From: Gari tellinella
Taxonomy: Eukaryota > Mollusca > Bivalvia > Cardiida > Psammobiidae
Assembly (NCBI GenBank): GCA_922989275.2
Contig: OV277859.1
Location: 83,634,198 to 83,698,197, forward strand
DNA: 64,000 nt
Reading direction: 5' to 3'
Part shown: positions 4,827 to 32,811 of the stretch, in pieces
How positions within the stretch are numbered: position 1 is the first letter of the stretch
Layout of the letters: each line of letters starts with the position of its first letter
Position numbers and translations under genes: made by a program
Notes under the pieces: generated by a model
The model's database searches: none
What the model was told of the DNA's origin: nothing
What the model saw: the letters and a program-made list of their open reading frames with translations, nothing else

Positions 4827-5274
4827 TGTATTCATGATATAGTCTGCTAAATTTTTTAATGTGCAATTTTATTTCAAATTTTTAATTTTTTGACAGACTA
4901 AAATTATTATTTATACCAGTGCCAAATAATTTGGATGCAAATCAGATGTCGCAAAAGATAGCATCATATCTGAATCCAAACTGTTTAAAATTGTTTCCAA
5001 AATGAGTGTGACAGATTGAAGTTTAATCCATTGCAACCCTAAGCAATGAGTATTCTCATCTTTTACAAACAATGTATCTGTTTAGAGTACATTGTGTTCT
5101 ACGCAAAATGTTTATAAGATAGCAAGTTGGAACAGATTCAGTTCAGTGGAGTTGGAATGCTCTTAAATATCTTATATATAACTAATTCCTTGCAGGCATT
5201 ATTAACTTATTTATATTATACATGTAGCTGATACTGGGCTACGATCCAAAAGTGTAACTATTTGCATGCTTAAC

Positions 5275-5466
5275 CAGGGCTCCAGATAAGAGGGAGTAAA
5301 CTGAACAAATCTAACTTTTTTCACTTATTTCAGCACCAAATCATATGGTGTTATTATTCATTAGAATTGTCTCAAATAGACAATTCTAATGAGTAGTAAC
5401 ACCATAGGGTTTAATAAAGAAATAAAGATTTAAGTTTTTGAAATACTCCCCTTATCTGGAGCCCTG
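5275..5466. mobile_element. CAGGGCTCC miniature element, inverted
   Basis: The ends are CAGGGCTCCAGATAAGAGG and CTTATCTGGAGCCCTG around an ATTAGAATTGTCTC-type hairpin. The target duplication is decayed. Confidence 0.75.
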
Positions 5467-5543
5467 CTGAGTTAACTACTTTTCATATGTTATTATGATA
5501 GCTTTGATGTACAGTTTCAATCTCAGCTTTCAAATCTGTATGT

Positions 5544-5605
5544 CAAACAGTTTGGATCCAGATCAGGCCAGACCTTTGTGAGGCCTGATCTGGACCAAAA
5601 CTGTT
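5544..5605. repeat. GGATCCAGATCAGGC hairpin
   Basis: An imperfect hairpin of the GATCAGACGCCG class. Relatives lie at 6095-6160, 12477-12535, 28520-28590, 37490-37555 and 46190-46255. Confidence 0.5.
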
Positions 5606-5673
5606 ATCAAAAGTTATTGAAAAATTCACTACCAAGGTGCAAAAAGTAATGATAAATTTCTTTCAAATAATTC

Positions 5674-5858
5674 CAGGGCTCCAAATAAGGGGGGTATTTC
5701 AAAAAATAAAATCTTTATTTCTGCATTGAATCCTATGGTGTCACTACTCATTAGAATTGGCTCGATTCTAATGAGTAGTAACATCATAGGATTTGGTAAT
5801 TGAGTGAGAAAATGTTGGATTTGTTCAATTAACCCCTCTCTGATGAACTGGAGCCCTG
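5674..5858. mobile_element. CAGGGCTCC miniature element
   Basis: The ends are CAGGGCTCCAAATAAGG and CTGGAGCCCTG. The central hairpin is shortened (ATTAGAATTGGCTCGATTC). No target duplication is recognisable. Confidence 0.7.
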
Positions 5859-6798
5859 GGTTATAGAGTTTTGTAAAGAAGTTATTATCAGATTTTTCTG
5901 ACTTGGCCGAGTTATTTTTAGAACAGAATACTTTTTATTGGTCAATTGGTAACAGGTTAATATTGGATATATATTTGTACACTTTCCTACTTGAGAAAAG
6001 CATGATCCTTGTGCAGCACGAGACCGCTGCGCTAACTTTACTGATCTGTTATTCTTTTTCAATAAACGCATTTATGCTAAAACTATTATTCCCATTGCAA
6101 ACAGGTTGGAGCCAGATCAGACACCGGGTAACCCGGGGTCTGATCAAGCTCCAACATATTTGCCACTCTGATTAAAAATATCTATAGTTAGAAATTTCTA
6201 AAAGTAAATTTCCAGTTTTTGCATTGCGTTTAAACGCAAAAGAATAATGTCTTCTATGCTGTACATTACGCACAATAAATACAGCTATCCGTATCTCTAG
6301 CTGGCTGTACGGAAATCAACGAGTACAATACTCATCCCTTTCAAAGATTTAGAATGTTCCAATCTAAAAATGAATCGGCCAATTTTAAGTCGGAAGAAAA
6401 CACTAATAACCTGTACAATAACATGTTTACCTCAAACCAAAATACTTATGTCTGTCAACAGAATGGCGTGAATAACAGGAAGCCAAATATACGGGGAAAA
6501 TATCAACCCTGTACCAGCTACTGTATTCTCTACTTCTATGTTATTGTCTGTATTTAAAAAATAAAGTTTTAGAGTCCTAAATATGTGCCAAACAGTTAAG
6601 ATCCTGATCAGATGCCAAGCCAATCTATATTTGATTTGGATCCAAATTGTTTCTAAATTCCTGTTACATGTATGTTATGCTTTGTTGGTGAAGAGTTATA
6701 AATCAGTTTTATTAGTATAATTGCGTCATGCCTTGTTATATTTGGAAACAGTCCAATTAATATGAAAGGACAGTCAAGCCTATTTTTCACAGAAAAGT

Positions 6799-8219: not shown

Positions 8220-8940
8220 TAGTTTTGAAGACAGGTAACCACTTAAAGACATTATCCCAGTCCATTCAATGATTCCACCCCCACCCCCTTGTTCTCACTA
8301 GGCGTGAAAGTAATTGTAAAGCATGAGAAAAGCTTGGTCTAGAGAGGCCTTTTTCAACCGGTTTGACTAACCAAACTATCAAAGACATGGTATGTGCCTC
8401 AAATGAGGCACTTCAATGATTCAATGACATTTGCACAGTTATGGCATGCTATCCATGCTTTAATTCAAACCTTTATTCAGACTAGGTGTTTTGCAGTTAT
8501 GGCCATTAAATTCCTCAGAATGGCGTTTTAATTAAAGGCACTGCTGGTTATAGAACTTGATCTCCATTTCTGACAACAAACATTTTCAGAAAGTGAAGAT
8601 CAGATGAAAAGCAATGTGTTTGTGAAACATAAATGCCCCCAGCCAGTATCATGTACGGTAATGTAATGCTTATTTGCAAAGTAGGTCAAAAATCAAGGTA
8701 GCACAGTAAACAGGAGCTGTCACTGTAAGATGACAATGCCCTCCAAATGATGCTCTGACTTATTATTTTATATATTATATTACAATTTATATAATTCCTG
8801 TACAGTTTGGTTGAAATCTGTTCAGCGGTACAGGAGGAGATGTCATTTGAAGCAATTGTTAATGACGATGGACGATGCACGATGACTGACACAGGGCCAT
8901 CCAAATAGCTTACCTTGAGCCTTTGGCTCAGGTGAGCTTA
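8220..8940. other. Gene-free stretch with repeat fragments
   Basis: 8297-8420 resembles a repeat seen again at 46.6-47.35 kb (GTGAAAGTAATTGTAAAGCA, AGAGAGGCCTTTTTCAA). 8540-8940 is an inverted relative of 45.05-45.25 kb and ends in GGCTCAGGTGAGCTTA, a common boundary of the tandem arrays here. No gene seen. Confidence 0.5.
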
Positions 8941-8984
8941 CATTAGCTAAGAGGGAAAGGGTTAAGAAATGGGCCTAATACCTG

Positions 8985-9413
8985 CAGTGATAATTTTACC
9001 TTTGCATCCAGATTCCTATACTCATTAAAATTGCCAGGGACTCATTATTTGAAAAGTTGTGAGTCCCAAGGACCCATAGCTTTTCTGGCCTTTATTAACC
9101 CATTACTCCATATTACACAATTTTATGCCATTAATGTATTCTTAGAATCCACTGAAGTGAATAGTTCGACTTATATAATATGCAACATCAGAAATACTTT
9201 CTATATCCTAGCAGATAGTAGCTTAAAGCAGGTTGAAAGTAAAGCAGAATGTGCCTGATTTAAGTGGTCACCTGCCTTTAAAACTAAAAATAAGTTGTTG
9301 GATACTGAGTAATTTTTTCACGTCATGGACTCAATGTTAGTCTCAAGGACTCATTGTATTACAGAATTTTGCATCCCGAGGACTCACTCATCTGAATTCT
9401 AAAATTATCACTG
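8985..9413. mobile_element. CAGTGATAATTTT element inserted in the GLDC exon 4 splice donor; 6-bp duplication TACCTG
   Basis: The inverted ends are CAGTGATAATTTT (8985) and AAAATTATCACTG (to 9413). TACCTG lies immediately outside both ends (8979-8984 and 9414-9419). The right duplication is the exon 4 junction itself: on the minus strand it reads CAG|GTA, three exon bases and three intron bases. The interior carries a TTAACCC element (about 9097-9270). CAG/CTG ends with a 6-bp duplication fit hAT6-like elements. No transposase remains. Confidence 0.85.
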
Positions 9414-9416
9414 TAC

Positions 9417-9581
9417 CTGTAGCACATGCCCATTGCTTCTGCAGCTGCTGTGGCCTCATCCAGCAAGGAGGCATTGGACACTGTCAACCCCGTCATGTCC
9501 GACACCATGGTCTGGTAGTTCAATAAAGAGTTCAGCCGACCCTGGGCTAGCTCCGCCTGGTAGGGTGTGTACTGTGTTGTC
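9417..9581 (-). CDS. GLDC: GLDC exon 4
   Basis: Acceptor TTACTAG|G at 9581 completes a split Trp codon with exon 3. The exon encodes [30 protein letters not shown] and [16 protein letters not shown] and ends AG|GTACAG. The donor lies inside the target duplication of the element at 8985-9413, so the intron now starts GTA followed by transposon end CAGTGATA; a second CAG|GTATTAGG lies on the far side of the element (8979-8984). Confidence 0.93.
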
Positions 9582-12500
9582 CTAGTAACAAAATCAATTA
9601 TTACTCTTACTAGGAGAAGAACCTAATAAGCCAACATTGCTTTCGTTCTCATCCTAAAGTATATTTATGTATGATTATAAAATATGTACTATGTTTGAAA
9701 CAAAATATCTTTAAACTAATTATTACTCTGTACTGTCATTAAAATCCAAAGAGATTTGAAGCCTCTAGATTGCGAACAAAGTTTTTTCAATGTTTTGACC
9801 TCATGACCTAGTTTTCAACCAGCCATGACTCATACTTGAAACCTGACCTGACCTAGATATCAATTAGGCAAACATTCTGACCAAGTTGCATTAAAATCCA
9901 AAGAGATTTGAAGCCTCTAGAGTGTAAACAAGGTTTTTCTATGATTTGACCTAGTGACCTAGCTTTTGACCTGACATGACCGCATTTCGAATTTGGCCTA
10001 GATTTCTTCAAGACAAACATTGTCATCAAGTTTCATAAAGATCAGATGAAATGTGTAGCCGCTAGAGTGTTAACAAACCAATTGTGTACGGACAGACGGA
10101 CGGACGTCCAGCTATCCTAAAAGCTCACAACTTTGTGCCAGGTGAGCTAACGAGAGCACCGCAAACGGGTGCTGGACGCTCGACTTTCATATACTTGAGA
10201 TGGCTACATTTTTGAAACTTAAAGAATGTGTATGGGTGTTTAATGCCCTATTGATCATAGAAGTTTGTAAGCAACAACAACTTTAACATACTTGGACAGC
10301 CTGCATTCCATTTAAAGTAAACTATAAGTCAAAACAAGGACAATATCTTTATATCTTTATATCTATAAACAAGAATTCTAATATATTGGAAGTTTGAAAT
10401 TAATAACTTTCTACAGTTACTGAATAATTTCATATACAAATTCTTAGTCAAACAAGGGCAGTAACTCTGCAATGACAAATCCCATGGTTATCTGCCTTGT
10501 TGAAATGTGATGCCCTTTTGAAACTGAACAAGTATTCAAATTTCAAGTTAATACCTATGGTAGTTATTGAGAAATCTAATTAAATTCTAAAAAGTCAATA
10601 CCAAAGGGCAATAACTATGGAAGAACAAAACCCAGGGTTACCTGCCCTCTTGTAATGAGTTGTCCTTTTGATACTTAACAAGTATTTAAAGTTTCAAGTA
10701 AATACCTATGGTAGATTCAATTGACAAGTTTTATGTAAATAAAAAAACAAGGGCAATAACTCTGGAATGGCACATCCTCGGTCACCTTTCTTGTTTGAAT
10801 GAGTTGCCCTTTTGATATAACACAATTACTTAAAATTTCAAGTTAATACCTTTGACAGTTATTAAGATATTTCAATTTACAAGTTTTAAGTAAATAAAAC
10901 AAGGGCAATTACTCTGGAATTACAAATCAAAGAGTAACCAACCTTGTTGTAATGAGTTGCCCTTTTGATACTAAACAAGTATTCAAAGTTACAAGTTAAT
11001 ATCTTTCATAGTCATTTAGATATGTTAATTTATAAATTTTACGTAAACAAAACAAGGGGAATAACTCTGAAATGACAAATCCCAGGGTTACCTGCCTTGT
11101 TGTTATGAGTTGCCCTTTTGATACTGAACAACTATTCCAAGTTTCAAAAGGATACCTTTGACAGTTATTGAGATATGTTAATTTATAATTTTTAAGTAAA
11201 TAAAATAAGGGGAATAACTCTGAAATGACAAATCCCAGGGTTACCTGTCTTGTTGTTATGAGTTGCCCTTTTGATACTGAACAACTATTCCATGTTTCAA
11301 ATGGATATCTTTGATAGTTATTGAGATATGTTAATTTATAATTTTTAAGTAAATAAAACAAGGAAAATAACTCTGAAATGACAAATCCCAGGGTTACCTG
11401 CCTTGTTGTTATGAGTTGCCCTTTTGATACTGAACAACTATTCCAAGTTTCAAATAGATATCTTTGATAGTTATTGAGATATGTTAATTTATAATTTTTA
11501 AGTAAATAAAACAAGGGCAATAACTCTGAAATGACAAATCCCAGGGTTACCTGCCTTGTTGTTATGAGTTGCCCTTTTGATACTGAACAACTATTCCAAG
11601 TTTCAAATAGATATCTTTGATAGTTATTGAGATATGTTAATTTATAATTTTTAAGTAAATAAAACAAGGGCAATAACTCTGAAATGACAAATCCCAGGGT
11701 TACCTGCCTTGTTGTTATGAGTTGCCCTTTTGATACTGAACAACTATTCCAAGTTTCAAATGGATATCTTTGATAGTTATTGAGATATGTTAATTTATAA
11801 TTTTTAAGTAAATAAAACAAGGGCAATAACTCTGAAATGACAAATCCCAGGGTTACCTGCCTTGTTGTTATGAGTTGCCCTTTTGATACTGAACAACTAT
11901 TCCAAGTTTCAAATGGATACCTTTGACAGTTATTGAGAAATGGACTCTTACAAAAACCTTAAGCAAAAAACTTAACCGACGCAGACGCTGACGCAGACGC
12001 AGACGCAGACGACAGGGTGACAACAATAGCTCGACTTTTCGAAAAAGTCGAGCTAAAAATGCATAAAAGTAACCTCTAAATGGAGCTGTCTGCATCATTT
12101 TTTTATCTTTATTGAACAGACGTGCCTAGAAATGCTATCACTGAAATCTTTCAAATCGGCCCAAACATGACTGCCTATTAGTAAGTGTAAAGTTGCCATT
12201 TTACTGTCCAAACTTCAAGTGTCACTCTCACACCGTGAACCATAGTCTGCTCCTGTTTTAACTAGACTCCTGCTTAAACTGGCATTTGCAAACAGTTTTG
12301 ATCCAGACCAAAACAGATTAACTGAATATTTGATTCAAATTCAAACTCTTGGACATGTTACATAAATCTTTTGCCTGTCAAAATTAACTGATTTTTTTTT
12401 TTAAAGATGACATTTTAACTAATTCTTTGCTAGCAAGCAGCAGATACATGTGCCACAGTGATTACCTTTGCAAAAGTTTGGATCCTGATGAGACACCAAG

Positions 12501-15500
12501 AAATACGGTGTCTCATCAGGATCCAAACTGTTTGACAATTTGACCCTGTATTTTTGAAAATTCTATTTTTAGAACAGTAGCAGACGACAATTGATGCAGA
12601 CAAAAAAAATACCCTGCCAGGGCTCCAGATAAGGGGAGTAATTCGAAAATTAAAATTCTTCATTTCTGCATTAAACCCTTTGGTGTGAATACTCATTAGA
12701 ATCATCTCTTCGAGACAATTCTAATGAGTAGTGACACCATAGGATTTGATGCTGTAATAAGTGTGAAAATGTTGTATTTGTTCATGGTTTAGTCCCTCTT
12801 ATCTGGAGCCCTGCCCTACATTCAAAGAGTTAAAGACAATAAATTCAGTAGCACAAAGTACTACTCGGTTTGTAATGTGTTTTACTAGTGTAGATAAATG
12901 GGAAACATCAAAGCAACATGCAATACAGATTGTCATGATAGCCAGAGCACTTTACTAATACATGTACAGTCAAACTTCAATATCTTGTTCAACTCGAAAT
13001 ATCCGATAGTTCGACATATGAACTGCAATATTGTATGCTCGGTTAAGTCGAACATCAACCCATATTTCAAAGTGAAAACATGTTTAAACCACGTTTTAAC
13101 TTTGAGTTTGAAATACAGGTATTTTCGACAAAACAGACTTCGAGATATTGAAGTTCAACTGTAAGTTTGGATGCCCCTGTTTTGTATCCTCGTCCTAGAT
13201 TTAGCCTACTTCCAGCAGAATTATATTTAGAACTTTATGTAGATAAGTAGAAAGCCTTTGGGCATGGAAGCATATAAAGAATAATGAGAAAATTAGCTGA
13301 ATATGCAATGGTTGCAAGCCATGAAATGGCATATGCATCATGAAACTACAACTATAGACACTGAATGTATGGCATGTCTTTTTTAGACAGATAGTTGCTA
13401 AACCCATACCCCCATAGAAGCGCCTTTTAGCATATTCATTTCATTCATCCACTGAAGGAAATAGTTCCAATTTATACAGTCATGAATGTGTATCATAAGA
13501 AATAACTTAATGGTTGATCACTAAAAGCAGACAGAAAATAAAGCATTTAGGCATTCCTTTCAACCTGCTTTAAAAAGTGGTCTGTCTTCAAAACCAGAAA
13601 CAGGCTATAGGATCAAGGGTTAAAGCAGGATGAAAGTAAAGCAGATAGCTCCTAAAAGAATTTCTGCTTTACTTTTATCCTGCTTTAAGATGCCACCTGT
13701 CTTTACCCCTTTCAATTTGTTTTCTGTTGAGTGGTTGTTTAACTGGGTTTCACTGTGTGCCTTATTATATAGGAAGAGCATTACCAACTTGAACATGTTT
13801 AGTGTGGACACAGATGTGAGGGGTTTTCTGGAAATTCTCAAATCTGAATCTACACTAGAGACGGGGTTGGTCAGTTTGGGTTTAGATCTAGTTAATACTC
13901 TAAGAGACGTGTGTACATGTATATATATATTTACTATTATTTGTTTCTGTTGTAACTTGTTCTGTTTATAGATCTATAGATGATGTATGAATTTAAAACC
14001 TTTATGGAGGGCCTCATGGGAGATTAGTCGTTCGACTAAATGAGACACCCTCGTTAAATAAAGTAATTCATTCATTCAATAAATCTTGTATAAAGTGGGC
14101 CTAATCAGGAGGAATAAATTAAAGGCATAAAAAAGTGTATTTATGGGTTAATGGGTTAACTGAACCTCTCTTATAAGCTGGAGGGTATAAGAGGGAGTAG
14201 ACTGAACAATTCCAACATTTTCTCACTCATTTTAGCACCAAATAATATAGGGTTTACCACTTATTAGAATCGTCTCGTAGAGACGATTCTTATGAGTAGT
14301 GACATCATAGGGTTTTATCCAGAAATAAAGATTTTAGTTTTTGAAAATCCCCATTATCTGGAGCCCTGGAGGTGTGTCACAGTTTGAAAGTGATATGGAT
14401 ACTCACCAGCCAGGGTTTTCCAGCATATTACGCATGATTGTATGAGGAGTGTATGTATTGTAGTAGCCTATGCCTATGTAACTGCGGTACATCTTGTTTT
14501 TATGAGCCATGTTGTATAGTCTCTCCAATAACTGGTACTCATCTGAAATGATGCAGTGAAAAATACATAAAACACATCATTACAACCACATCCAGGCATC
14601 ATGCAATTAATACAACTTGTATAATACAGTCCAAACTCGATAATTCGAACTTGCATTAGTTCAAATATACCCATATTCCAAAGTTGAAACATGGCTGAGC
14701 CACGTTTTAACTTTGAAATACAGGTATTTTCCACTTAAGGGAGACCAATCTATTTTAATTAAACATAACTAAATACCGGTTAAGTCAATTTTAGCGAGTT
14801 TGAAGTATCAATGTTGGACTGCAAATTATACATCACAAATTGCAAGTGCATCCATTACTGCAACTGAGGAAATCTGGGCTAACCTAAAGACAGGTCTACT
14901 CAAGACAACCGAGGAGGTGTGTGGCACTACAAAGCCACATCGCTGGCGGCGGGAAACATGGTGGTGGAACAATCAAGTTGATGCGGCAGTCACAGAAAAG
15001 TGGCGGGCATTCAAGGCAATGAAAGCAGGCACTGAAACTAGGGCAGCCTATGACTCAGCCAAACATGCAGCTAGGCCCACAGTGTATCATGCTCGGCACG
15101 AGGCAGAAAAGGTCATGTACGAGAACATTGACCCCAATAAATCTGATGTCTTCCGCCTTGCAAACCAGATGCGAAGAGAGAATGGTGATGTCATAGGTGA
15201 GAAGCCAGTAAGGAATGATGCTGGAGAGATGTCCTTGAGTGAGTCTGCTAAGCAGGAGGCCTGGCAAGAACACTTTTGAGTGGGACCCTGAGCACCTGAC
15301 CAAGGAACCACCAGTAGAAGGTCCATCTATCCCAGTCACAATTGATATGGTGAAAAAGTCCATTTCAAAGATGAAGACAGGTAAAGCTGCAGGACCATCG
15401 GGCATTGTGGTGGAAATGATCCAAGCAGCAGGTGCTACCATGATTTGCGACCTTGTAAGGGCAATCATTCATGAAGGCAGGATCCCCTCTGACTGGGAGG

Positions 15501-18500
15501 AGAGTTTCATTGTCTGCATCTACAAAGGCAAGGGTGATGCTCTAGAAAGAGGTAACTACCGTGGTCTCAAACTCATAGACCAGGTCATGAAAATCTTAGA
15601 GCGAATTGTGGTCCTATTTTTATTTGTGGATAGACTCATCAGACAGTTGGTGACCATAGATGACTCCCAGTTTGGCTTTGTACCAGGCAGAGGCACTACA
15701 GACGCAATTTTTGTTGTTCGTCAGATGCAGGAAAAACACCTAGCAATGGACAAGAAGCTCTACATGGCCTTTGTAGATCTAGAGAAGGCGTTTGATCGGG
15801 TCCCTCGGAAAGTGACATGGTGGGCCATGAGAAAACTTGGTGAGGAAGAATGGATTGTCCGCCTGGTTCAAGGAATGTACGCAAATGTGCGTAGCTGTGT
15901 TCGTGTTGGAGAGGGTCATAGCAACAAGTTCGAAGTGAAAGTCGGTGTACACCAGGGCTCTGTTATCAGCCCATTGCTCTTCATCATTGTACTTGAAGCC
16001 CTCTCCCACGAGTTCCGGACGGGCGTCCCCTGGGAGGATCTCTATGCAGATGACTTAGTAATCATCACAGAGTCACTTGAGAAATGTGTCAGGAGACTTA
16101 TGGTTTGGAAAGAGGCCATGGAAGAGAAAGGACTCAAATGCTGGCAAAACAAAAATCATGATCTGTGGCACTGGCATGGACCTTCTACAGAGTGTTGGCA
16201 AGTACCACTGTGCTGTTTGCCGCACAGGTGTGGGCAGAAACAGCATCTTCTGTAATGGTTGCAAACTCTGGGTCCACAAGAAATGCAGTGGTCTGAGGAG
16301 GCTGGTGGAAGATCCTGACTTAAGATGTTCCCACTGCCTGGGAACCGCTCGCCCCATTGACTGCAGGGCACAGAGAGAGGTCCAAGTTGGCCAAGACAAG
16401 CTGGAGGTGGTTCTCTCCTTTTGCTACCTTGGGGACATGTTGTCTGCAGCGAAGGCTGTGACCTCGCAACAACGGCTCGTGTTAAGTCTGCTTGGAAGAA
16501 ATTCAAGGAGCTACTGCCTGTCCTCACGTCACGCCACCTCTCATACAAGACACGCGGCCGCATCTACAGCATATGCGTGCGAAGTGTTATGCTCCACGCC
16601 AGTGAAACCTGGCCTCTGACCAAGCCAATGTTCCAGCGCTTGCAGCGTAACGACAGGGCCATGATCAGACAGATTTGCAATGTCAAGCCAGAAGATGTGA
16701 CCACTGTCCGTTCCAGGAAGCTGCTAACGCAACTTTGCATAGAGGACTTGAAGAGGATCTTGAGGGAAAGACGGCTTCGATGGTATGGGCACGTCGAACG
16801 CTCCACTGGAGCTATTAAGTGTGCCAGAGATATGAAAGTTGCAGGAAAGCGTGGGCCTGGGAGGCCCAAGATGTCATGGAGGGAGCTGACTGTAAGAGAC
16901 CGCCAAGAATGGGGACTCGCAGCAGTTGACCCACATGATAGAAAAGTCTGGAGATCCTGTGTAAGAACCGCCATGCGTGCAGCTAGCCAGTTACCTGGAT
17001 GAGAGCCCACTGTTGTGGACAATGCTCCCACCACTGCACGTTAATAAAAATCCGATGATGATAATGATGATGAAATTCAATGTATGAACACATTTGAACG
17101 CATCTTTAAGGCACATTCTGATTTACTTTCAACATGCTTAAAGTTTTCACCTGTCTTCAAAACTAGAAACAGGATATGTGGTAAAGAGTTAAAATCTCTG
17201 TAACTCATAATTTTTGGACTGACACATGTACATCTTTGGTATATTGAATCATTCTGGAATATTGATTTTCAGAGCTAATTGATGCTACAAAAATAAGTCG
17301 GAATATTATACCATAATAACCCTATAAGTATTGGTCCAGACAGACCCAGTAAACAGTGGAGACCATGATCAGGCTAGGCTAATCCAGAGGAAGCAGTCTG
17401 ATCAGGGTCTACAATGTTTGCCATTCCGTCTGCGCTTTTTGGACAAATTACTGTGTGAAAATCAGAGAATTATATGTCATTGCATGAGATAGGAGTTGTC
17501 TAATAACCAGTTAGAGCCAGGCTTGCTCATCATCATGAAGTGAGCACTCACTTGTTTCTCCTAAAGCAGAATAAACCCATCCTATTTCATTTAATGACAT
17601 ATCATTTGATTTATCCGGTCATTAAATGATTTTGACCTTTCAAATTTATATTAATACAGTAAAACCTCATAATTACGACCACTAAAATGAAGGCAAATTG
17701 ATTGTAATATAAAAGACATATGACAACTTAAAGCAAAGTCACAGTAAAACAGAAAGCTCCTTCAAGAGCTTTCTGTTTTACTGTCACCTTGCTTTAAGCA
17801 GTCACCTGTCGTTAAAACTTAGTAATTAGCACAATTTAATGGTCGTAAAAGAGAGGTTTTACTGTACTAAATTTGTCAAGTTTCACATTACATGTATGTC
17901 TGACATACAAAAAATGAAACAATTACTGCTGGGTAGCAGCCAAACAGCGCTTAGTTAATCCTACAACAAAATACTTAGAGCAGCGTTTTTGGGGGGGACC
18001 CGTTCCAAATTGAAAACAAGCTTTTTTTTCCAAAATGAGCATTTCATGGAACAATTTTTCCCCAATATGAGCCTTTTACGACTCAATTTTTTCCCAAAAT
18101 CAAGTACTTTAAGCCGTTTTAGGTAGAGATGTCAACGAATACCAAAATGCTATCCGAATATTCGAAAGTTCTATCCGAATAGTATTCGGATATTCGGATT
18201 TGGAAACCATAGAAATCATTGTATGTTCGTAAGTTGCTTGAATACTATAGAGGTAATTTAGATGATACCCCGTAAAGCTTCTCTCACGGCATAATAGTGT
18301 AAGTATTCAGTCAAAGCAGACTTGAATCGATTTAAATTTTGATTTAGTGCAAGAAGATGCCTGGATATGATCTATTTGGCGTTCATTTTTGCAATGAAAC
18401 CATTTTTGTTTCGAGTTACAGAGTACATGTTTACCTGCGAGTAAGCGGCATGGTGCCATGATCTGGGCCTTTTTGTAAAATTCACTCTTTGTCTTTTTCA

Positions 18501-24500: not shown

Positions 24501-27500
24501 AATAAGAACGATAAAACTAGATCTAATCAAAATCGGATTTGGACTCAAGTAAGATCGCTCTATTAGATCGGAATCTAGAGAATCGCGATGATTAAATTAA
24601 GAAAGAAAAAACCGATCTAGATATACCCGTACAATATGTAGATCTAGTAATGAGACTTTTTACATTAAGAATTTCTGTAGCGTTGAATTCCTAAACCGAG
24701 ACGAACCAGCTAGAAAATGCTGATTTGTAAACGAGTTGGTAGATCTAAGCCAGTTCAACATTTAGGTCTAGATCAGCACAATATCGCACTGATTATCAGA
24801 TTTTTTTTTTATTGTAGATCTAGATCTATTATTATAAACATCAATCAAGGTATTATGGATGTCGCCATACTCTACTGTTAGCCATTTCGCAGCATTGTTT
24901 TCCCAGATTCTATAGCTGGGAATTGGAACGGACATTTCTCTAAGCCGATTAACGATAGCTTCTGATCGTTTCTGGATCTACACGACCTTTCAAGTTCATC
25001 ATAATCAATATGAATATACCATCTATCTATTATCTTTCTTTTTTTTTTAACTGTATGCGACCTTGAATTAAGCTTGCCGTTACCCTTACTGACGAAGTGT
25101 GAAATGTCCGTCCAAGTTACAGTGGTTGAGTGAAAGAGCCAATCAGCGTTTAGGCCTTTGTGTCGTCACAAAATGGATAAAAATCGAGGGTTCCGAATGA
25201 TAGCTTTGCCAATATGGCGGCGCCCGTTCCAATTAGCGATAGCTTACCTGTATGCAGTAAATCGATCTTTTTCGTACCTTATCGATGAGTAATAATTGCA
25301 GGACCTTCATGAATGTTGCTTTTAGGATAAAATCTAGGATCTAAGACCATATTGTCATCAGCTGTCCGTTTTCCTTTAATATATCTGTATGAGAATAGAA
25401 ATATTGAATGGATATGTATTTGTATACTGGCTTTTTACTTTGAACAGCAAGAGCTTTGTTTTAAAAATGTCTTTCTTTCTATTTTTGGGTTTTTTGGTGT
25501 GTTTTTTTAAAAAAAAAAGTGTCATTACCTAAATATATTATTATATACACCTTAAATCGACATCAATTGTGTTTGGTTCCGTAGAATAAAGGATGTGTTA
25601 CCGGCTTTCATAACAGGACGTCCCCGGGGTTCGAATCACACCTGATGAAAATAGTTATTTCTTTTAAACTATAAGTTTGCTTTGTGGAGATGCTCAATGA
25701 ATATTAAACATATTTATTGTATTTTTCCCATAGATCTGCAATTTTACTAGATTGACTAATTATTTGTTTTGAAGAATGAAAAGTTTCCACTACCAGTATA
25801 ATAGTTCCGGTTCATTCACATACAACTACTATATATGGATAAACCTGCTACTATACAGATAAACTTAGGTTTATTACTTTATTATGCTACCTGTCATTTT
25901 ATTTTGTCACTAAAGGCTGTAGTAATGGGATACAAGGAATTGTTCCAGTTCATGAATTATGATAATTACAGTGGTACACAGGCTGTCCCAATTAACCCTT
26001 AGCCCGCCAAATAAAATGTTGTCTGCTATATTTCTCGTCTGCTTCAAGTTTCAAAGTGCTTCAAAGTTGCTCAAAATTGCTTAAAATGTTGTCTGAGTGT
26101 CAAACAGCTTGGATCCGGATGAGACGCCGAGTTACTCGGCGTCTCATCCGGATCCAAGCTGTTTGCATATGGAGCTATAGTCGTGAGTGGCAGGCTAAGG
26201 GTTAATAGGATTTTTAGTACTACTAGTTCATGTCTTTGTTTAATTATCAAACACTAACATTGGCCTAATTTCTAGACAAACTTTTAACCTTTATCATGCT
26301 GAGAACGACTTAACCCAATACCCCAGTTTTAAAGAAATATGATCACTTAAAGCAGGTTTAAAGTAAAGCAGCCTGCCAATTTCAAGGACAAAGGTCACAG
26401 AGACCTGAAATGTGTGTCTTGTGCATCTACTACTCCTGAGTAACATTTATGCCATGTATAAAGAGAATCAGGTTGAAATTGAAGGAGGAGTTCAAAGTAC
26501 AAGATTTTGCCTGCCAATTTCAAGACCAATTTCAAGGACAGAGGTCATGGTAAAGGTCATAGAGACCAGGGTTTTCCCTTGCATTTTGTAATTGAGAGTC
26601 CTAAGGACCCTCAAACCTTTCACTTTAAGAGTCCCTCAGCATATTTGGGGGTCCCAAATTAATTTGATGTGTATAAAAGGCCTTCCAATGTTGACAAATA
26701 CATTGTTTGACCTTTGTAAACAGTGCAGATTCATGATCTGATGACATTAGCATACCCCAAATCAGCACTCAGGATTTACATATCTGATGATTTGGGGGTT
26801 TGAAGTAAAATGTGGTCAAAGATTTGAGGGTCTTGGGGACTCCAGGGGTTGGACAAATAGGGGTCCCAGGTGACAGAATTGAGTCCAAGATGCAGGAAAC
26901 CTGCGTCCGGGAAAACCCTGGAGACCTGAAATTTGTGTCTTGCACATCTACTTCACCTGAGTAACATTTATGCCAAGTATCAAATGAATCAGGTTGAAAC
27001 TGAAGGAGGAGTTGAAAGTACAAGATTTTTGCAGACAGACCGCCCGCCAGGCTGATTCCAGTATACCCCGCCCCCCCCCACCCTCCCCCTCAATCTCTGT
27101 TTGTGGGGGTATAACAATTGGTATAGACCTATAACAGTTACGCATATAATTTTGACATTAGTATATTAACAATCGTCTTTGATTTGCAACTCTATAACTT
27201 ATTGTATTGATGTATTGTGGGCTGGTGGCCTTTATTTACAATAAAATATCTTGTTACTTGTATCTGGTTAAATTTCAGATTGTCAAGGTCATCATTCTCA
27301 GTAAGTTTTATGAATTTATAATTATGGAATGAATTTAAAATATGGCTCCTACAGAGTTTAGAAGCTTTTTCTATGTTTTGACCCTCTGACCTATTTATTT
27401 ACCCTACGTACGCCATATTCACCCATTGCCTAACTTTTGTCAAGATGATCATTCAAAGCATGTTTCAAGAAGATTGGTATAAAAATATGGCCTTTTCTAT

Positions 27501-30500
27501 AATTTGACCTACTGACCTACTTTATAACCCCACATGACCTACATACATGCATGATCTAACTTTTTTTTTATCTCATGAAGATACAGCCAAAACTACAACT
27601 TCTAAAAGGTCACATAATCTTAACCTTTTATCAAATTTTATAGAACAGCGAAAATGACAACACCTTCTGGCGGCCATGTATTTTGACAGATGTTTATCAA
27701 TGGAGATGGTGAAAACCATATTCATATTGGACCAGTGATTTTGGAGAATAAGATTTTTTTCTAGATTTTGTACATGGTTGCTATGGCAACCAGAATATTT
27801 ACCCACCCACATAATTACATTTCACAACTTTTTGTTCCCCCAACCTACTGATGTTTTTGATGAAGTTTGTTGGTATTTAGGTCAAAGGTCAATGGCTACA
27901 GAAGAGATGTCATTTGAAAATGTGGCCGGACAACGGATGCCAACATCAGACACCTGAGAAAGGACAAAGAGTGGTCACAATAGCTCATCAGGGGCCTTTG
28001 GCTCAGGTCAGTTCAAAACTGTAGGAGGAGTTAGCGGGACTGTGCATGTCCCTTGTATACAAAAACTGATTAAGTTCAACAAGTTTGCAACCAGAGCTTC
28101 AGATAAGGGGAGTATTTCAAAAACTAAAATCTTTATTTCTGAATTAAACCCTATGGTGTCACTACTCATTAGAATCATCTCTTTGAGATGATTCTAATGA
28201 GTAGTTACACCATAGATTACGGTACTGAAATGAGTGAGAAAATGTTGGATTGTTCAGTTTACTCCCTCTTATCTGGAGCCCTGATGCAACTCTTAGATGA
28301 ATTAAAGCAGATCAAAATCCTGATCATTAAGCACACCTGTGGTATACACTCAGTACAAAAAGAAACGCACATTGTGCTCAGGCGCAGATTAAGATACTTT
28401 TTTAAGATACTAAGACCATATCTCAAGATCAATTTAATTCTGCCACAAGTTTAGAAAAAACATATACTTAAAATTACTGTGCTGTATTTTAACCCTTTCA
28501 CTATTAATGACGTCAAAATGCGCGTTTTCAAACAGTTTGGATCCTGATCAGACGCCGCGTAACGCGGCGTCTGATCAGGATCCAAACTGTTTGACACTCG
28601 TATAGATATACTTTAAGTCATACTACTTTGAATCTTACTTTGAAACGATCTTGCAAACAACAAAATTGAAGCAGACGACAATGAAACGGTGGTTGGATAA
28701 AAAATTCACGATTAATTTGGAAGCGAAAGAGTTAACTAGTGCCTGTTGAAAACACCGCACCGATTTGTACAGGTTGTGATGATACCAATTCAATGATAAA
28801 CCTCCCATTTTCAACATTGATAGCCCAAGACGGAACTACTGACTGTAATGAAAAGATTATTTCACAAATACGTTCCTTCTACATACAGATAATATTGTAT
28901 AAAAGTGTGCGTTTCTTTTTGCACTGAGTATATGTATAAACAGTCTGCAAACTTAAAGCTGTAGGAGCAGTTAGCTAGACTAAGTCTGTATCGTATACAG
29001 ACGGATGAACAAACAGACAAATCGACAGACCCCACCTCCCAGGGGCATAAAAAATGTTGTTGGGCATATTTTCTTTATTTCCTCTTATCTGCAGCTTTGA
29101 TATGAGCATTACAAAAGGTGCAAAAACTTAAAAGTGCAATATATATAGGGCTCAAGATAAGACTTAAAGAGTGCATAAGCCTCATATTTTCAACAATTTC
29201 TCCTACATGCCTCTATCAAACCCTTATAATCTGAAGCTCTGTTAAGTTGTATAAAGACTATCGATCGACAGTCACCCATAGGCCTAATGGTTTCACCCAA
29301 TGAGGCACTGAACACATCAATACCTAAAATTAAAACTTCAACAAAAATCTTATGAACTATACCAATGTCGAATTAAATCTAGTACCTTTTTTAGCAGGGG
29401 CATTGTGTCGCACCGACACATTTCTAGTTCATCTAATCTTCACCAAACTTTCTGAAAACAATCGTTGTACAGTGATTGCCCTAAGCCAAACAAAAGGGCA
29501 GCCCGCCCTGCCTCCTTTGATCCAAATCCTGACCTTTCATCAGTGCCACCATGCTATCAAACAAAATGCCATTGAAGAGTAGGCTTTAGGCAGATTTCTG
29601 CCTAAGTTGTAGGAAAAATATTTCTATTCAATGCCTTAAAAATCAAACAATATTTACCAAATGCTTCTGATATATTGAGCTCTCTTTGAAGTCTGATATT
29701 TTCTGGCACTGTTTGAGAAACCATGTCTTCCATTGTCTGAAAATATAAAAGTGCAGTGGTTTTGTTTCATGTGTTAACCCTTTCCCCTATTATGAGAAGC
29801 GGCCTTTTAGCCCATTCAGTTTATTCCTCCACTTAAAAAAAATTAGTTCCGATTTACACAGTTATGGATCATGAGGAATATTTTCTTAATTCTAGCATTC
29901 TGCTTTACTTTAACAAAAGCCCCATGGGCATGTTTCGCTCACCTGAGAATAGCTGACAAAATGGAGATAATGATTTATGTCCAGGACGGGTAATTTTTTA
30001 CCCAAACGGCATAATTTGAACAATGGTAAATGATGCTATGTGCCAAATATCTAAGATCAGGGTACTAGGGTTTTAGACAAAAATATTTTTTTAAGTTTCC
30101 ATTGAAAAAATCTATTTTTAGCTCCTGTGACCTACATATGCAACTGACTGGAACCATTTGAACAAAATAGGTAAAGGACATCTAGAAGTGTCACCATGTC
30201 AAATATCAAAGCTCTGGCCATAATAGTTTTAGAGAAGACGTTTGAAAATTTCACTATATACCTCTATGTAAAACTGTGACACCCGGGGCGAGCCATTTTT
30301 TACCCCAGGGGCATAATTTGAAGAAACTTGATAGAGAAGACCTATAGATGATGCTATGTGCCAAATATCTAAGATCTGGCCCTTGTAGTTTTTGTCGATG
30401 AGATTTTTTAAAGTTTTTATAGAAAAAATCTATTTTTAGCTCCTGTGACCATGATATGCCTAGATATGCAACAGACCGACACCATTTGAATAAAATACGT

Positions 30501-32121
30501 AAAGGATATTTAGAAGTGTCACTATACCGAATATCAAAGCTCTGGCCATATTAGTGTCAGAGTTGAAGACGTTTGAAATTTTCAATCACTATATAACTGC
30601 ACGTAAAATTGTGACCCCCGGGGCGGGCCAATTTTGACCCTAGGGGCATAATTTGAATAAACTTAATAGAGGCTCTATAGGTGATGCTATGTGCCAAATA
30701 TCTTAGCTCTGGCCCTTGTAGTTTCAGACAAGAATATTTTTAAGTTTTCATTGAAAATATTTTTTTTATCTCCTGTGACCTAGATATGCAACCGACCAGA
30801 ACCATTTGAACACTATTTGTAAAGGACATCTAGAAGTGTCACCATGCCAAATATCAAAGCTCTGACCATATTAGTTTCAGAGAAGACGTTTGAAAATTTC
30901 ACTATATAACTCTTTGTAAAACTGTAATCCCCCAGGGACGGGGCCATTTTTTACTCCATGGGCATAATTTTAAGATTTCCTTATTTTTCACTTTGGCTGC
31001 CATGGCAACCAGAGTTCTAAATTGTTTTTTATCCTTTGAGCAGTTTGAAAGAGCTTGCTTGACCCAAGGAACATTCCTGTAAAGTTTGGTTGAAATCTGT
31101 CAAGCTGTATAGGAGATATCATTTAAAGCAAATATTAACGAAGACACACAAGGCACGACGATGGACACAGGGCCAATCCCAATAGGTCACCTTCAGCCTT
31201 TGGCTCAGGTGAGCTAAAAATGGGATTCCATTATGATTAAAAGCCTGAGGAAACGTCTTTAGAATGGACACCATTATACATAAAAGCTGGAATTAAATTC
31301 CCGAAACAGATTAATACTGTTCACAACGTCCCTTAGTGGGAAATATCAATTTTGTCATGGACAGAAACGGAGATTCAGTGTTCCCTCCCTACAACAGCTC
31401 TACAAACAACAACTCCCTCCTTACAACGACCATTGTCGCAGTTCCCTTAAAAGGACAATTATGTCCAACACTTTTACGGCTGCAATGTCGTCTGCCTTAA
31501 ATAGTCGTCTGCTGCTTTGCTCAAAGTTACTTTTTTGACATTTTGACAGTAAAATACGTAACCACGAGTGACAAACAGCTTCACTAGTGCTCTAGAGAGG
31601 CCCTGCACTTATAATGGGAAGAAGAAGAAGAAGACTACAGAACTGAGTAAACAACAACTGAAAAGTTTGAGTGTGTATACATACATGTACATGTTGTACA
31701 CAGTATATACATGTACTAGTGTACATTTCTGTCACTGAGTTGGACAGTGATTCCATGATGTAAATGGCCTTGGGTCAGCCGGACTGATAGCCTGCGAAGT
31801 TGCGTAAACAACAGTCAACAATCACTTTTGAGACACTTTAAACTTCAGGAATGACAAATTTTAACAAATAGTCAAATCTCGCACACACTGATATCTTACC
31901 TTACACCCAATAAATTCGAGCATTGATTGCGTCTCGTCCAAATTTGGACCGATATGACGATCGGCAAACACATGATGGCTGGGGAAAAGAGTGTCAATCG
32001 CAGAAGACTTGTGTCTCCTGTTTCCAAAAGCAGCTCCTAGGCCATGTTGGTGCGTGTTGTTCGTTTGGTAAATTTTCAACAACCGTGTCGAGCCGCGGGC
32101 GACGGCAGATGCCCTCTGCAT
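9417..32121 (-). CDS. GLDC: Glycine dehydrogenase (decarboxylating), mitochondrial P-protein, exons 1-4 of a longer gene
   Basis: GLDC is the PLP enzyme of the mitochondrial glycine cleavage system; it decarboxylates glycine and passes the aminomethyl group to lipoyl H-protein. Four minus-strand coding exons (31900-32121, 29658-29736, 14407-14542, 9417-9581) give 200 codons plus 2 bases. Junction phases are compatible: 0, 1, then codons split as TG|G and AG|. The first about 40 residues are basic and poor in acidic residues, as in a mitochondrial targeting peptide. Then come [64 protein letters not shown] and [15 protein letters not shown], all hallmarks of the P-protein N-terminal half. The PLP lysine and later exons lie beyond the left edge; I found none in 1-9400. 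Introns are 2.2, 15.1 and 4.8 kb, all packed with transposons. The divergent neighbour is the glutaredoxin/DEP/DUF547 gene. Confidence 0.93.
9590..10130. repeat. Degenerate tandem unit pair
   Basis: Two related units contain AAAATCCAAAGAGATTTGAAGCCTCTAGA (9746 and 9894) followed by TTTGACCT-type words, and end in GACAGACGGACGGACGTCC. No coding signal. Confidence 0.5.
10130..12060. repeat. 153-bp tandem array with flanks (GLDC intron 3)
   Basis: About ten units begin with GGGCAATAACTCTGAAATGA. The last units start at 11515, 11668 and 11821, a period of exactly 153. Earlier units are more diverged, and later ones nearly identical. The left flank (10135-10480) recurs inverted at 38875-39215. 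The right flank has GACGCA repeats and ends in a hairpin TAGCTCGACTTTT / AAAAAGTCGAGCTA. Because 153 is a multiple of three, the minus strand has a 276-codon open frame that is only a repeat artefact. The layout (flank, unit array, terminal hairpin) resembles bivalve pearl or Helentron-type elements. Confidence 0.8.
12477..12535. repeat. GGATCCTGATGAGACACC hairpin
   Basis: A near-perfect inverted repeat, AGTTTGGATCCTGATGAGAC and its complement, of the same class as the hairpin inside the TTAA elements at 21064 and 25992. Confidence 0.55.
12618..12813. mobile_element. CAGGGCTCC miniature element with near-perfect 6-bp duplication
   Basis: The ends are CAGGGCTCCAGATAAGG and CTTATCTGGAGCCCTG. 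The flanks are CCCTGC (left) and CCCTAC (right), five of six matching. Central hairpin as in the other copies. Confidence 0.8.
12967..13161. mobile_element. pogo/Tigger-like miniature element (CAGTCAAAC), TA flanks
   Basis: It opens CAGTCAAACTTCAATATC and closes GATATTGAAGTTCAACTG, with TA outside each end. Centre ACCACGTTTTAAC. The 88-codon ORF across it is not a gene. Confidence 0.75.
13397..13623. repeat. TTAACCC-family element with shortened hairpin
   Basis: Left end CTAAACCCATACCCCCATAG, right end GGATCAAGGGTTAA. The central hairpin has lost most of its left arm. A variant hairpin (GCAGGATGAAAGTAAAGCAG) follows at 13621-13690. Confidence 0.6.
13740..14080 (+). mobile_element. 3' end of a LINE retrotransposon (CR1/jockey-like tail)
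   Basis: The segment ends ACACCCTCGTTAAATAAAG followed by an ATTC repeat (about 14062-14080), the usual 3' end of CR1-like elements in invertebrates. The open frame upstream is short and carries no recognisable reverse-transcriptase motif, so this is a 5'-truncated remnant. Confidence 0.6.
14160..14369. mobile_element. Degenerate CAGGGCTCC element
   Basis: The left end is rearranged (CTCTTATAAGCTGGAGG); the right end ATTATCTGGAGCCCTG and the hairpin TTAGAATCGTCTCGTAGAGA are clear. Confidence 0.6.
14407..14542 (-). CDS. GLDC: GLDC exon 3
   Basis: Acceptor TTTCAG|AT at 14542 and donor GGCTG|GTGAGT at 14407. It encodes [34 protein letters not shown] and [10 protein letters not shown]. The first two bases complete an Asp codon with exon 2; the last two begin the Trp finished by exon 4. 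Confidence 0.94.
14627..14821. mobile_element. pogo/Tigger-like miniature element abutting the RTE copy
   Basis: It opens CAGTCCAAACTCGATAATTC after TA and closes AGTATCAATGTTGGACTG. The right TA is missing: the element runs straight into the retrotransposon, which suggests the RTE copy landed at or next to this end. Confidence 0.65.
14822..17072 (+). mobile_element. RTE-like non-LTR retrotransposon, 5'-truncated and frameshifted
   Basis: The reverse-transcriptase polyprotein can be followed through four frame segments: about 14822-15275, 15277-16145, 16141-16445 and 16445-17002. Seen in order: the linker before the RT domain; RT motifs [44 protein letters not shown] (first catalytic Asp), [13 protein letters not shown] and LYADDLVI (YADD catalytic pair); a Cys/His finger CAVC...FCNGC...WVHKKC...CSHC; and the C-terminal [11 protein letters not shown] and [11 protein letters not shown]. 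The ORF stops at 17002. A GATGATGATAATGATG-type tail ends near 17072, as in RTE elements. The upstream endonuclease is absent. With at least three frameshifts this copy is dead. It lies antisense in GLDC intron 2. Confidence 0.9.
16204..16350 (+). pseudogene. PHD-like zinc finger inside the retrotransposon polyprotein
   Basis: The segment between RT and the C-terminal domain reads C-x2-C, C-x2-C, H-x2-C, C-x2-C (CAVC, CNGC, HKKC, CSHC), with W before the histidine. This order of ligands is that of a PHD/RING-type finger. It probably helped bind nucleic acid or target DNA; that role is inference. Confidence 0.6.
17073..17656. other. Gene-free stretch with repeat fragments
   Basis: 17095-17195 is a right half of a TTAACCC element. 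17355-17420 has a CAGACC/GATCAGG hairpin of the class at 1-196. Nothing else recognised. Confidence 0.5.
17657..17864. mobile_element. CAGTAAAACC (pogo/Tigger-like) element, TA flanks
   Basis: It opens CAGTAAAACCTCATAATTAC and closes AAGAGAGGTTTTACTG, with TA outside both ends. The interior is a long palindrome with arms CTTAAAGCAAAGTCACAG and CTGTCACCTTGCTTTAAG meeting at AAAGCTCCTTCAAGAGCTTT. Confidence 0.8.
18124..19252. mobile_element. hAT-like element, 8-bp duplication GTTTTAGG
   Basis: The ends are TAGAGATGTCAACGAATAC and GTATTCGTTGACATCCCTA. GTTTTAGG flanks both sides perfectly (18116-18123, 19253-19260). Sub-terminal ATTCGAATATTCGG repeats are typical of hAT ends. The interior of about 1 kb has no long ORF, so it is non-autonomous. 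It interrupts an older repeat that continues as GGGCATATATTTCCC. Confidence 0.85.
19822..21415. mobile_element. hAT5-like element with inverted arms, 5-bp duplication TATAC
   Basis: The ends are CAGGGGCGTGTCTGG and CCAGACACGCCCCTG with TATAC flush outside both. Near the right end an inner inverted pair (GGTATTTAGAATATAAAAA and its complement) brackets the TTAA element 21064-21277. No transposase ORF seen. A diverged relative lies at 39290-39620. Confidence 0.75.
21064..21277. repeat. TTAA element with GATGAGACGCCGAG hairpin, copy 1
   Basis: TTAACCCTTAGCCCGCCAAA to GGCAGGCTAAGGGTTAA, 214 bp, TTAA at both ends. The centre is a long hairpin, GGATCCGGATGAGACGCCGA and its complement. Almost identical in length and sequence to 25992-26205. 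Confidence 0.85.
22198..22520 (+). pseudogene. Broken ORF, possibly related to P2X7 C-terminal-like domain proteins
   Basis: A 66-codon frame ends in TGA at 22396. After that stop and one more, the same frame continues with [19 protein letters not shown], and an overlapping frame reads [14 protein letters not shown]. Together these resemble the Cys-rich segment and following helix of the P2X7 intracellular-domain-like proteins common in invertebrate genomes. The later conserved Tyr/Trp/Arg block is not visible. I give this as a weak identification of a decayed passenger or captured gene. Confidence 0.3.
22756..22795. repeat. 40-bp perfect palindrome
   Basis: CAGAGACAGTGTATAGCCAT followed by its exact reverse complement. 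Confidence 0.8.
25380..25990. other. Gene-free stretch
   Basis: Only AT-rich sequence. 25570-25650 contains a B-box-like GGTTCGAATC, but no tRNA fold could be built around it. Confidence 0.5.
25992..26205. repeat. TTAA element with GATGAGACGCCGAG hairpin, copy 2
   Basis: A 214-bp twin of 21064-21277 in direct orientation, differing at only a few positions. TTAA at both ends; flanked by ordinary intron sequence. Confidence 0.85.
26376..27060. repeat. Two tandem units, the second split by an insertion
   Basis: The unit contains CAGAGACCTGAAA, GAGTAACATTTATGCC, AATCAGGTTGAAA and GAAGGAGGAGTT. The second unit is interrupted by the element at 26567-26920, so the first unit serves as the empty-site control. 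Confidence 0.75.
26567..26920. mobile_element. hAT5-like element, 5-bp duplication GAGAC
   Basis: The ends are CAGGGTTTTCCC and GGGAAAACCCTG with GAGAC flush on both sides (26562-26566, 26921-26925). The undisrupted neighbouring unit reads CAGAGACCTGAAA across the site. Interior GAGTCCTAAGGACCCTC-like words; no ORF. Confidence 0.85.
27240..28015. repeat. Degenerate array fragment ending in GGCTCAGGT
   Basis: Contains TGACCTACTGACCT-type words and ends GGCCTTTGGCTCAGGTCAG, the same boundary as at 8940 and 31210. No coding signal. Confidence 0.5.
28092..28283. mobile_element. CAGGGCTCC miniature element
   Basis: The ends are CAGAGCTTCAGATAAGG and CTTATCTGGAGCCCTG. TGCAAC occurs on both sides, offset by one base on the right. 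Hairpin ATTAGAATCATCTC / GAGATGATTCTAAT. Confidence 0.7.
28347..28930. mobile_element. Tc1/mariner-like miniature element split by a TTAA element
   Basis: The inverted ends are CACTCAGTACAAAAAGAAAC and GTTTCTTTTTGCACTGAGTA, next to TA. Inside lies the 247-bp TTAA element 28489-28735 (TTAACCCTTTCACTATTAAT to AGCGAAAGAGTTAA) with a perfect hairpin around CCGCGTAACGCGG. Another copy of the same end occurs at 41496-41525. Confidence 0.7.
28489..28735. repeat. TTAA element with GATCAGACGCCGCG hairpin
   Basis: TTAA at both ends. The centre is CAAACAGTTTGGATCCTGAT with its exact complement around ACGCGGCG. Nested in a Tc1-like element. Confidence 0.8.
29658..29736 (-). CDS. GLDC: GLDC exon 2
   Basis: Acceptor ATTTTCAG|ACAATGG at 29736 and donor GCATTTG|GTAAAT at 29658. 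It encodes [16 protein letters not shown] and [10 protein letters not shown] plus one base, matching the TVP.NIR block of the P-protein family. Confidence 0.92.
29772..29915. repeat. Partial TTAACCC-family element
   Basis: Starts GTTAACCCTTTCCCC, keeps the TTTATTCCTCCACTT half and breaks off inside the hairpin arm (CATTCTGCTTTACTTTA). It lies close to exon 2. Confidence 0.6.
29915..31218. repeat. Tandem array, about 300-330 bp period (GLDC intron 1)
   Basis: Units share GGGCATAATTTGAA (30009, 30310, 30645, 30960), GATGCTATGTGCCAAATATC, AGCTCCTGTGACC and GAAGTGTCACCATG. The array opens near CGCTCACCTGAG and closes with GGCTCAGGTGAGCTAAAA, an inverted pair that marks its bounds. Confidence 0.75.
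31376..31600. repeat. Left part of a CAGTGTTCCCTCCC element
   Basis: Begins CAGTGTTCCCTCCCTACAAC and follows the complete copy at 61348-61697 as far as GTGACAAACAGCTT, then breaks off. A short GAA repeat follows at 31617. Confidence 0.65.
31900..32121 (-). CDS. GLDC: GLDC exon 1 with start codon and mitochondrial targeting sequence
   Basis: ATG at 32121; 74 codons end GGGTGTAAG|GTAAGA. Residues 1-40 hold many Arg/Lys/Ser and no acidic residue ([20 protein letters not shown] opens it), fitting mitochondrial import. Residues 47 onward ([24 protein letters not shown]) are the conserved start of the mature P-protein. No further upstream in-frame Met is needed by the family. Confidence 0.92.
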
Positions 32122-32640: not shown

Positions 32641-32811
32641 CACTTGTTTCATAGGTACTTAGGGAACAGTCAAATCATTGTCCCTCGGTAGCAGGGAAGA
32701 CCTTGAGAACTGTTGCCCGAGGCCAACGGCCGAGGGCAACAGTTCTCAAGGTCTTCCCTGCTACCGAGGGACAATGATTTGACTGTTCCCTAAGTAAATA
32801 TGAAACAAGTG
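32641..32811. repeat. 171-bp near-perfect palindrome upstream of GLDC
   Basis: From CACTTGTTTCATA to TATGAAACAAGTG. The inner arms from ACTTAGGGAACAGTCAAATC to GTTGCCC are exact inverted copies, with only a few mismatches near the centre (GAGGCCAACGGCCGAG). The centre lies about 600 bp upstream of the GLDC start codon. Confidence 0.85.

Follow-up and report, generated by a model that had tools for sequence, protein, structure and literature searches.

The window, a 64-kb stretch of a Gari tellinella contig, carries on its reverse strand part of a glycine decarboxylase (GLDC) gene, and a 429-bp transposon lies across the 3' border of one of its exons (Table 1). The 55-residue peptide of this exon matches human glycine decarboxylase (Protein Data Bank 6i33, E 2.8e-21) and ends in CYR, with the Arg codon split after AG. 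The following exon reads on as HNKRRKF, and the resulting CYR|HNKRRKF across the exon-proximal donor agrees with the human GLDC sequence. The acceptor of that following exon ends outside the window, at window position -1766, giving the intron that begins at donor position 9416 a length of 11,183 nt, and more GLDC exons lie on the same strand in neighbouring stretches of the same contig.

Exons were joined where splice sites and protein fitted best, any join containing a stop being dropped in advance, so that the open peptide at 23 of 23 junctions (22 of them with coordinates) is partly a matter of construction, and the better evidence is the continuous joined frame, which remains open for 868 residues over 21 introns, up to the junction after -19660. 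By its sequence the gene looks intact, and a reading as a pseudogene is unsupported, given the open frame over those 868 residues. The nearest database proteins over the first 300 residues comprise two at 89% identity, followed by Mercenaria mercenaria (88%) and Mya arenaria (86%). In all 12 relatives judged by eye (of 120 listed; nine are named molluscs), the protein runs across the exon border without inserted residues, with CYR (or CHR, AYR) followed by HNKR (or LNKR, QNKR); this continuity shows what the protein needs, rather than how splicing proceeds in Gari tellinella. Rfam and tRNA scans of the 64-kb window gave no matches.

Table 1. Features of the GLDC insertion site and neighbouring exons, in window coordinates.
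Feature	Position	Strand	Remarks
Composite MITE, a short terminal inverted repeat (TIR) DNA transposon whose family is spread over the genome	8985..9413	.	429 bp
TIR at the exon-distal end	8985..8998	+	CAGTGATAATTTTA; 14 of 14 bases complementary to 9400-9413
TIR adjoining the exon	9400..9413	-	TAAAATTATCACTG; its CAG forms gene-strand donor positions +4 to +6
Proximal target duplication CAGGTA	9414..9419	-	Last three exon and first three intron bases; donor CAG|GTACAG
Distal target duplication CAGGTA	8979..8984	-	Donor-like CAG|GTATTA; weak acceptor if read as CAG|
Older nested MITE, TTAACCC end	9095..9312	+	Right end placed by alignment, approximate
In-frame TAA	9359..9361	-	Reached after 18 codons when the exon is read into the element
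GLDC exon (exon 4 of the original prediction)	9417..9581	-	165 nt; begins within a Trp codon, finishes within an Arg codon (AG|)
Preceding GLDC exon	14407..14542	-	Donor CTG|GTGAGT
Probable GLDC exon further upstream	29658..29748	-	Weak match, E 0.01; 5' edge not fixed

On the forward strand, TACCTG flanks the element on both sides (8979-8984 and 9414-9419) as a perfect 6-bp duplication, and the structure is a genuine transposon insertion at the GLDC exon border. The original prediction had placed the element and its inverted ends at exactly these coordinates, although the match between the ends is 14 bases long, a base longer than it had noted. It had also recognized the perfect TACCTG duplication and read it, correctly, as the exon/intron border: the duplication covers GLDC donor positions -3 to +3, and the exon edge retains an intact CAG|GTA donor core with element sequence after it. 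The second CAG|GTATTAGG that it described is likewise present, but not at a distance of 429 bp; the two GTs lie 435 nt apart (429 of element plus 6 of duplication).

A dispersed family of composite elements

What that description left out was the multi-copy nature of the element and the older repeat inside it. When the host genome (80 contigs, 1.598 Gb) was searched, 40 places were scored among 4488 first-look candidates, putting the number of dispersed copies at 40 or more, a count that is a lower bound. The 39 other copies fetched with their flanks are those scoring most similar to the GLDC copy, a choice that leaves divergence rank and copy number as biased values or lower bounds. An exact 6-bp target duplication flanks 16 of the 39, and 21 have one with no more than one mismatch (16 exact plus 5 with a single mismatch); when the right flanks were permuted among copies (1000 permutations), the mean was 0.48 exact duplications (maximum 4), or 0.80 with up to one mismatch (maximum 5). 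Two of the copies, L045 and L047, have identical flanks and represent a single insertion copied, which leaves 19 distinct duplications from the 21. The remaining 18 copies include two with exact 7-bp and one with an exact 5-bp duplication, as well as two 7-bp matches and one 8-bp match with one mismatch each, and the rest have none; thus, 6 bp is the commonest duplication length in the family. Ends that match fully over 14 bp are found in 9 of the 39 other copies and not in the other 30.

The family consensus is 456 bp long with CAGTG ends, and the GLDC copy is without 28 nt of it. In being short, with inverted ends, a duplication of fixed length, and dispersed copies of similar length, the GLDC element is like MITEs and other short TIR transposons. 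The longest stop-free stretch overlapping it is 103 amino acids, extends into the flank, and would be too short for a transposase. Its CAG ends and repeated GGACTCA motifs (five occurrences, counting both strands) are reminiscent of hAT elements. The usual target duplication of hAT elements is 8 bp. Because the duplication is instead 6 bp, both in the GLDC copy and most commonly in the family, the superfamily was left unassigned. Among the 21 copies with a 6-bp duplication, none has AGGT or ACCT within it, so that no family preference for splice-like target sites was seen.

Inside the element lies a second, older MITE, which we take to be piggyBac-like from its TTAA ends. This nested copy differs by 17.8% from the consensus of the 14 other window copies of its family, the second highest divergence of the 15 (range, 8.8-19.7%, with the 14 others having contributed to the consensus); the alignment left out window copies that matched fewer than about 180 bases of the reference. 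When the outer family was compared with its own consensus, 6 of the 39 fetched copies were dropped as not near full length, and the 33 others, all close to full length, align over both the outer and the nested parts of the 429-bp unit. The GLDC copy differs from that consensus by 5.1% overall, 5.2% in the outer part, and 5.0% in the nested part, and ranks 14th of 34 in divergence among copies chosen for their similarity to it. Since both parts are common to the 33 copies and are equally diverged, the nested MITE arrived as a passenger of the composite, and an insertion of this MITE after the outer element had reached GLDC is ruled out. At about 5% from the consensus, the GLDC insertion is probably not very recent, although the difference could partly predate the insertion. 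Under ordinary, uncalibrated rates, 5% suggests that the insertion dates back something like ten million years, with the caveat that the source copy may already have differed.

Other repeats occupy the window as well. The family of MITEs that begin TTAACCC and finish GGGTTAA, about 252 bp long with a hairpin at the centre, is abundant, occurring at many places within 841-62091 (for example, 50681-50932, 54514-54766, and 61836-62091), and one of its 15 aligned rows is the copy found within the GLDC element. At 26567-26920 lies a 354-bp element that has CAGGGTTTTCCC as its 12-bp ends, is flanked by a 5-bp duplication (GAGAC), and contains GGACTC/GAGTCC motifs; it may be distantly related to the GLDC element, from which it differs in duplication length. 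Another small family is represented by two copies (52365-52600 and 53768-53978) with ends CAGGGCTGCCAT and exact 6-bp duplications, GTTACA and CATAAT. Overlapping open frames at 14800-17002, in a GLDC intron, resemble a non-LTR reverse transcriptase, as judged by translation only. Long-period tandem arrays lie at 10450-11942 (153-bp units; within the intron upstream of the interrupted exon), 43102-45019 (304 bp), 58487-59226 (188 bp), and 30030-30975 (320 bp), and near-palindromes, with the stated identities to their own reverse complements, at 50449-50889 (77%), 5274-5859 (72%), and 32641-32811 (94%).

Splicing across the insertion

With the insertion in place, donor positions -3 to +3 are unaltered, +4 to +6 now come from the element, and the element is effectively intronic from +4. 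Scored with a matrix of human donor frequencies that was not fitted to Gari tellinella, and that also helped choose the junctions, the proximal donor CAG|GTACAG reaches 5.58, versus 4.08 for CAG|GTATTA, the ancestral context inferred from the two duplication copies. The corresponding U1 duplexes are -9.1 kcal/mol (with a bulge) and -7.2 kcal/mol. The higher score and the stronger duplex together predict a donor that the insertion did not weaken. Among the 22 listed GLDC donors, whose scores range from 3.04 to 12.71, the proximal donor ranks 13th, and another of these donors, AAG|GTACAG at window position -13702, is identical to it from +1 to +6. The proximal donor ranks 5th of the 35 GTs in 8900-9600, where it is outscored by two sites inside the element, 9271 (8.44) and 8999 (5.97), and by two downstream of it, 8913 (11.11) and 8941 (7.02).

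In one predicted fold, the element ends pair with each other (14 pairs, probabilities 0.85-1.00), the bases of the proximal CAG|GUA core are each paired at no more than 0.38, and donor positions +4 to +6 lie in the stem, paired at 0.86-1.00. When a slightly shorter stretch is folded, the minimum-energy structure additionally pairs C-3 and G+1 of this donor, and that stretch folds only modestly better than its shuffles (z -1.87; 4 of 100 equalled or beat it). Such pairing of +4 to +6, C-3, and G+1 could hinder U1. Most likely, we infer, the proximal donor is the one used, and the element is removed with the intron.

The course of events that we consider highly probable is as follows. A short cut-and-paste element with CAGTG ends, an older TTAA-ended MITE already inside it, would have inserted across the 3' border of the GLDC exon in Gari tellinella or an ancestor. 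Its 6-bp stagger fell on donor positions -3 to +3 and, as the anatomy shows, left a full CAG|GTA at both element ends, with the exon edge keeping its donor core and the first bases of the element, CAG, becoming +4 to +6. Splicing at the proximal donor would then remove the whole element within the 11,183-nt intron, and the distal CAG|GTA would be left deep in the intron with no function. That the element landed on the donor would itself be chance, and such copies would be observed because insertions at a donor survive only if the duplication keeps the core. The idea, put forward in the original prediction, that the target duplication rescued the gene is a fair one, but it describes the effect of a staggered cut. 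Assuming some 230,000 donors in 1.6 Gb, we estimate that chance alone would lay the 6-bp duplication over an AG|GT about 0.4 times in 1000 insertions and hundreds of times in a million TIR elements, in both cases before selection. Selection probably retains the insertions that preserve a donor. The GLDC case is instructive yet expected, and probably an ordinary one.

A two-step (recursive) removal has, in our judgment, a slim chance of being correct. Under this scheme, a 435-nt intron (9416 to 8982) would be spliced out first, re-creating the ancestral donor CAG|GTATTAGG, and the remaining 10.7 kb would follow, with the same mRNA resulting as from one-step splicing. As AG and GT both fall within the duplicated hexamer, its distal copy CAG|GTA could be read as acceptor and donor alike, and such a juxtaposition of acceptor and donor characterizes a ratchet point (PMC8605326); it is present here at 8984-8979, although a motif this short is common by chance. 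The distal acceptor, at 3.73, scores within the range of the 22 listed GLDC acceptors (2.85-11.93) and above the acceptor of the GLDC exon itself (3.49), and 435 nt is a more usual GLDC intron length than 11,183. Nevertheless, it beats only 2 of those 22 acceptors, 18% of all AGs on the gene strand score as high, it is without a pyrimidine run, and the previous AG, 18 nt upstream, leaves little space for a branch point. The re-created donor would also be weak; in Drosophila, an altered outcome is reported when a ratchet-point donor was weakened (PMC8605326). By extension, any cut-and-paste insertion whose duplication covers a donor AG|GT would automatically make a recursive site with a zero-length exon, the element turning into a removable intron at the donor of the older one, and in GLDC the result would be a twin intron of an animal, created in one step and removed first, a proposal that we regard as no less doubtful.

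The original prediction had instead seen in the distal donor a built-in route to exonization, with some GLDC mRNA spliced from CAG|GTATTAGG at 8984-8979 and 435 nt kept in the exon. A donor-like CAG|GTA does exist there, the extension is divisible by three, and the downstream bases are probably those of the ancestral donor. However, its score of 4.08 against 5.58 for the proximal donor places it 8th of the 35 GTs in 8900-9600, below also 9271, 8999, and 9387 in the element, 8913 and 8941 downstream of it, and 9540 in the exon, and its GUA is paired at 0.94-0.98 in one predicted fold. Further, the in-frame TAA at 9361-9359 would truncate the product of this donor and of any other donor lying beyond 9359 on the gene strand. 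Exonization is therefore not favoured; splicing from the distal donor is very improbable as a feature of GLDC expression, and its use would possibly amount to a minor splicing error rather than the origin of a new exon.

Use of another cryptic donor, whether in the element (9271, 8999, 9387) or just past it (8941, 8913), seems to us more improbable again, even though four of these five outscore the proximal donor by the human matrix. All except 9387 lie beyond the in-frame TAA, and splicing from 9387 would lengthen the exon by 29 nt, out of frame; moreover, GLDC is conserved as a housekeeping enzyme, and the join that fits HNKRRKF best starts at the proximal donor. Finally, the odds that the TACCTG match is coincidental, or that the structure was not born by transposition, are negligible: nothing was found in favour of this, the same ends with 6-bp duplications recur at different sites across the family, and none of 60 windows of 64 kb simulated with a first-order Markov model gave ends of at least 14 bases with a duplication of at least 6 (one case once the end length was relaxed to at least 12), the simulation and the family control together ruling out a chance origin.

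Relation to known insertions at splice sites

Maize Ds and dSpm insertions can be spliced from mRNA, with transposon ends or target duplications serving as splice sites, and they lie within exons, where they create new introns. The GLDC element differs from them in sitting at a pre-existing donor. Introners offer another parallel, as some families are described as taking one or both splice sites from the target duplication (PMC9860276), and the GLDC element is, in like manner, a TIR element with splice-site bases in its duplication. It departs from introners in that the GLDC intron is very probably older than the element, which lies at the 5' edge of that intron, and in that splice-site bases in the duplication are not a habit of this family (0 of 21, by a criterion set in this analysis).

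Recursive splice sites and twin introns are themselves already known (PMC8605326, PMC12403724). Stwintrons and recursive sites, as presented there, share with the GLDC locus an insert at a donor whose removal would re-create the outer donor, and a juxtaposed AG|GT (PMC12403724, PMC8605326). The 288 fungal stwintrons tested, however, showed no target duplication (PMC12403724), in contrast to the 6-bp duplication at GLDC, where removal in two steps is hypothetical. Among the papers listed in a literature search, the titles and the starts of abstracts contained no report of a target duplication preserving an existing donor.

The GLDC case cleanly illustrates how a target duplication can allow an insertion at an exon border to survive. 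If TIR insertions that cover AG|GT were removed in two steps, transposition would be tied to the way in which recursive sites and twin introns arise in animals.
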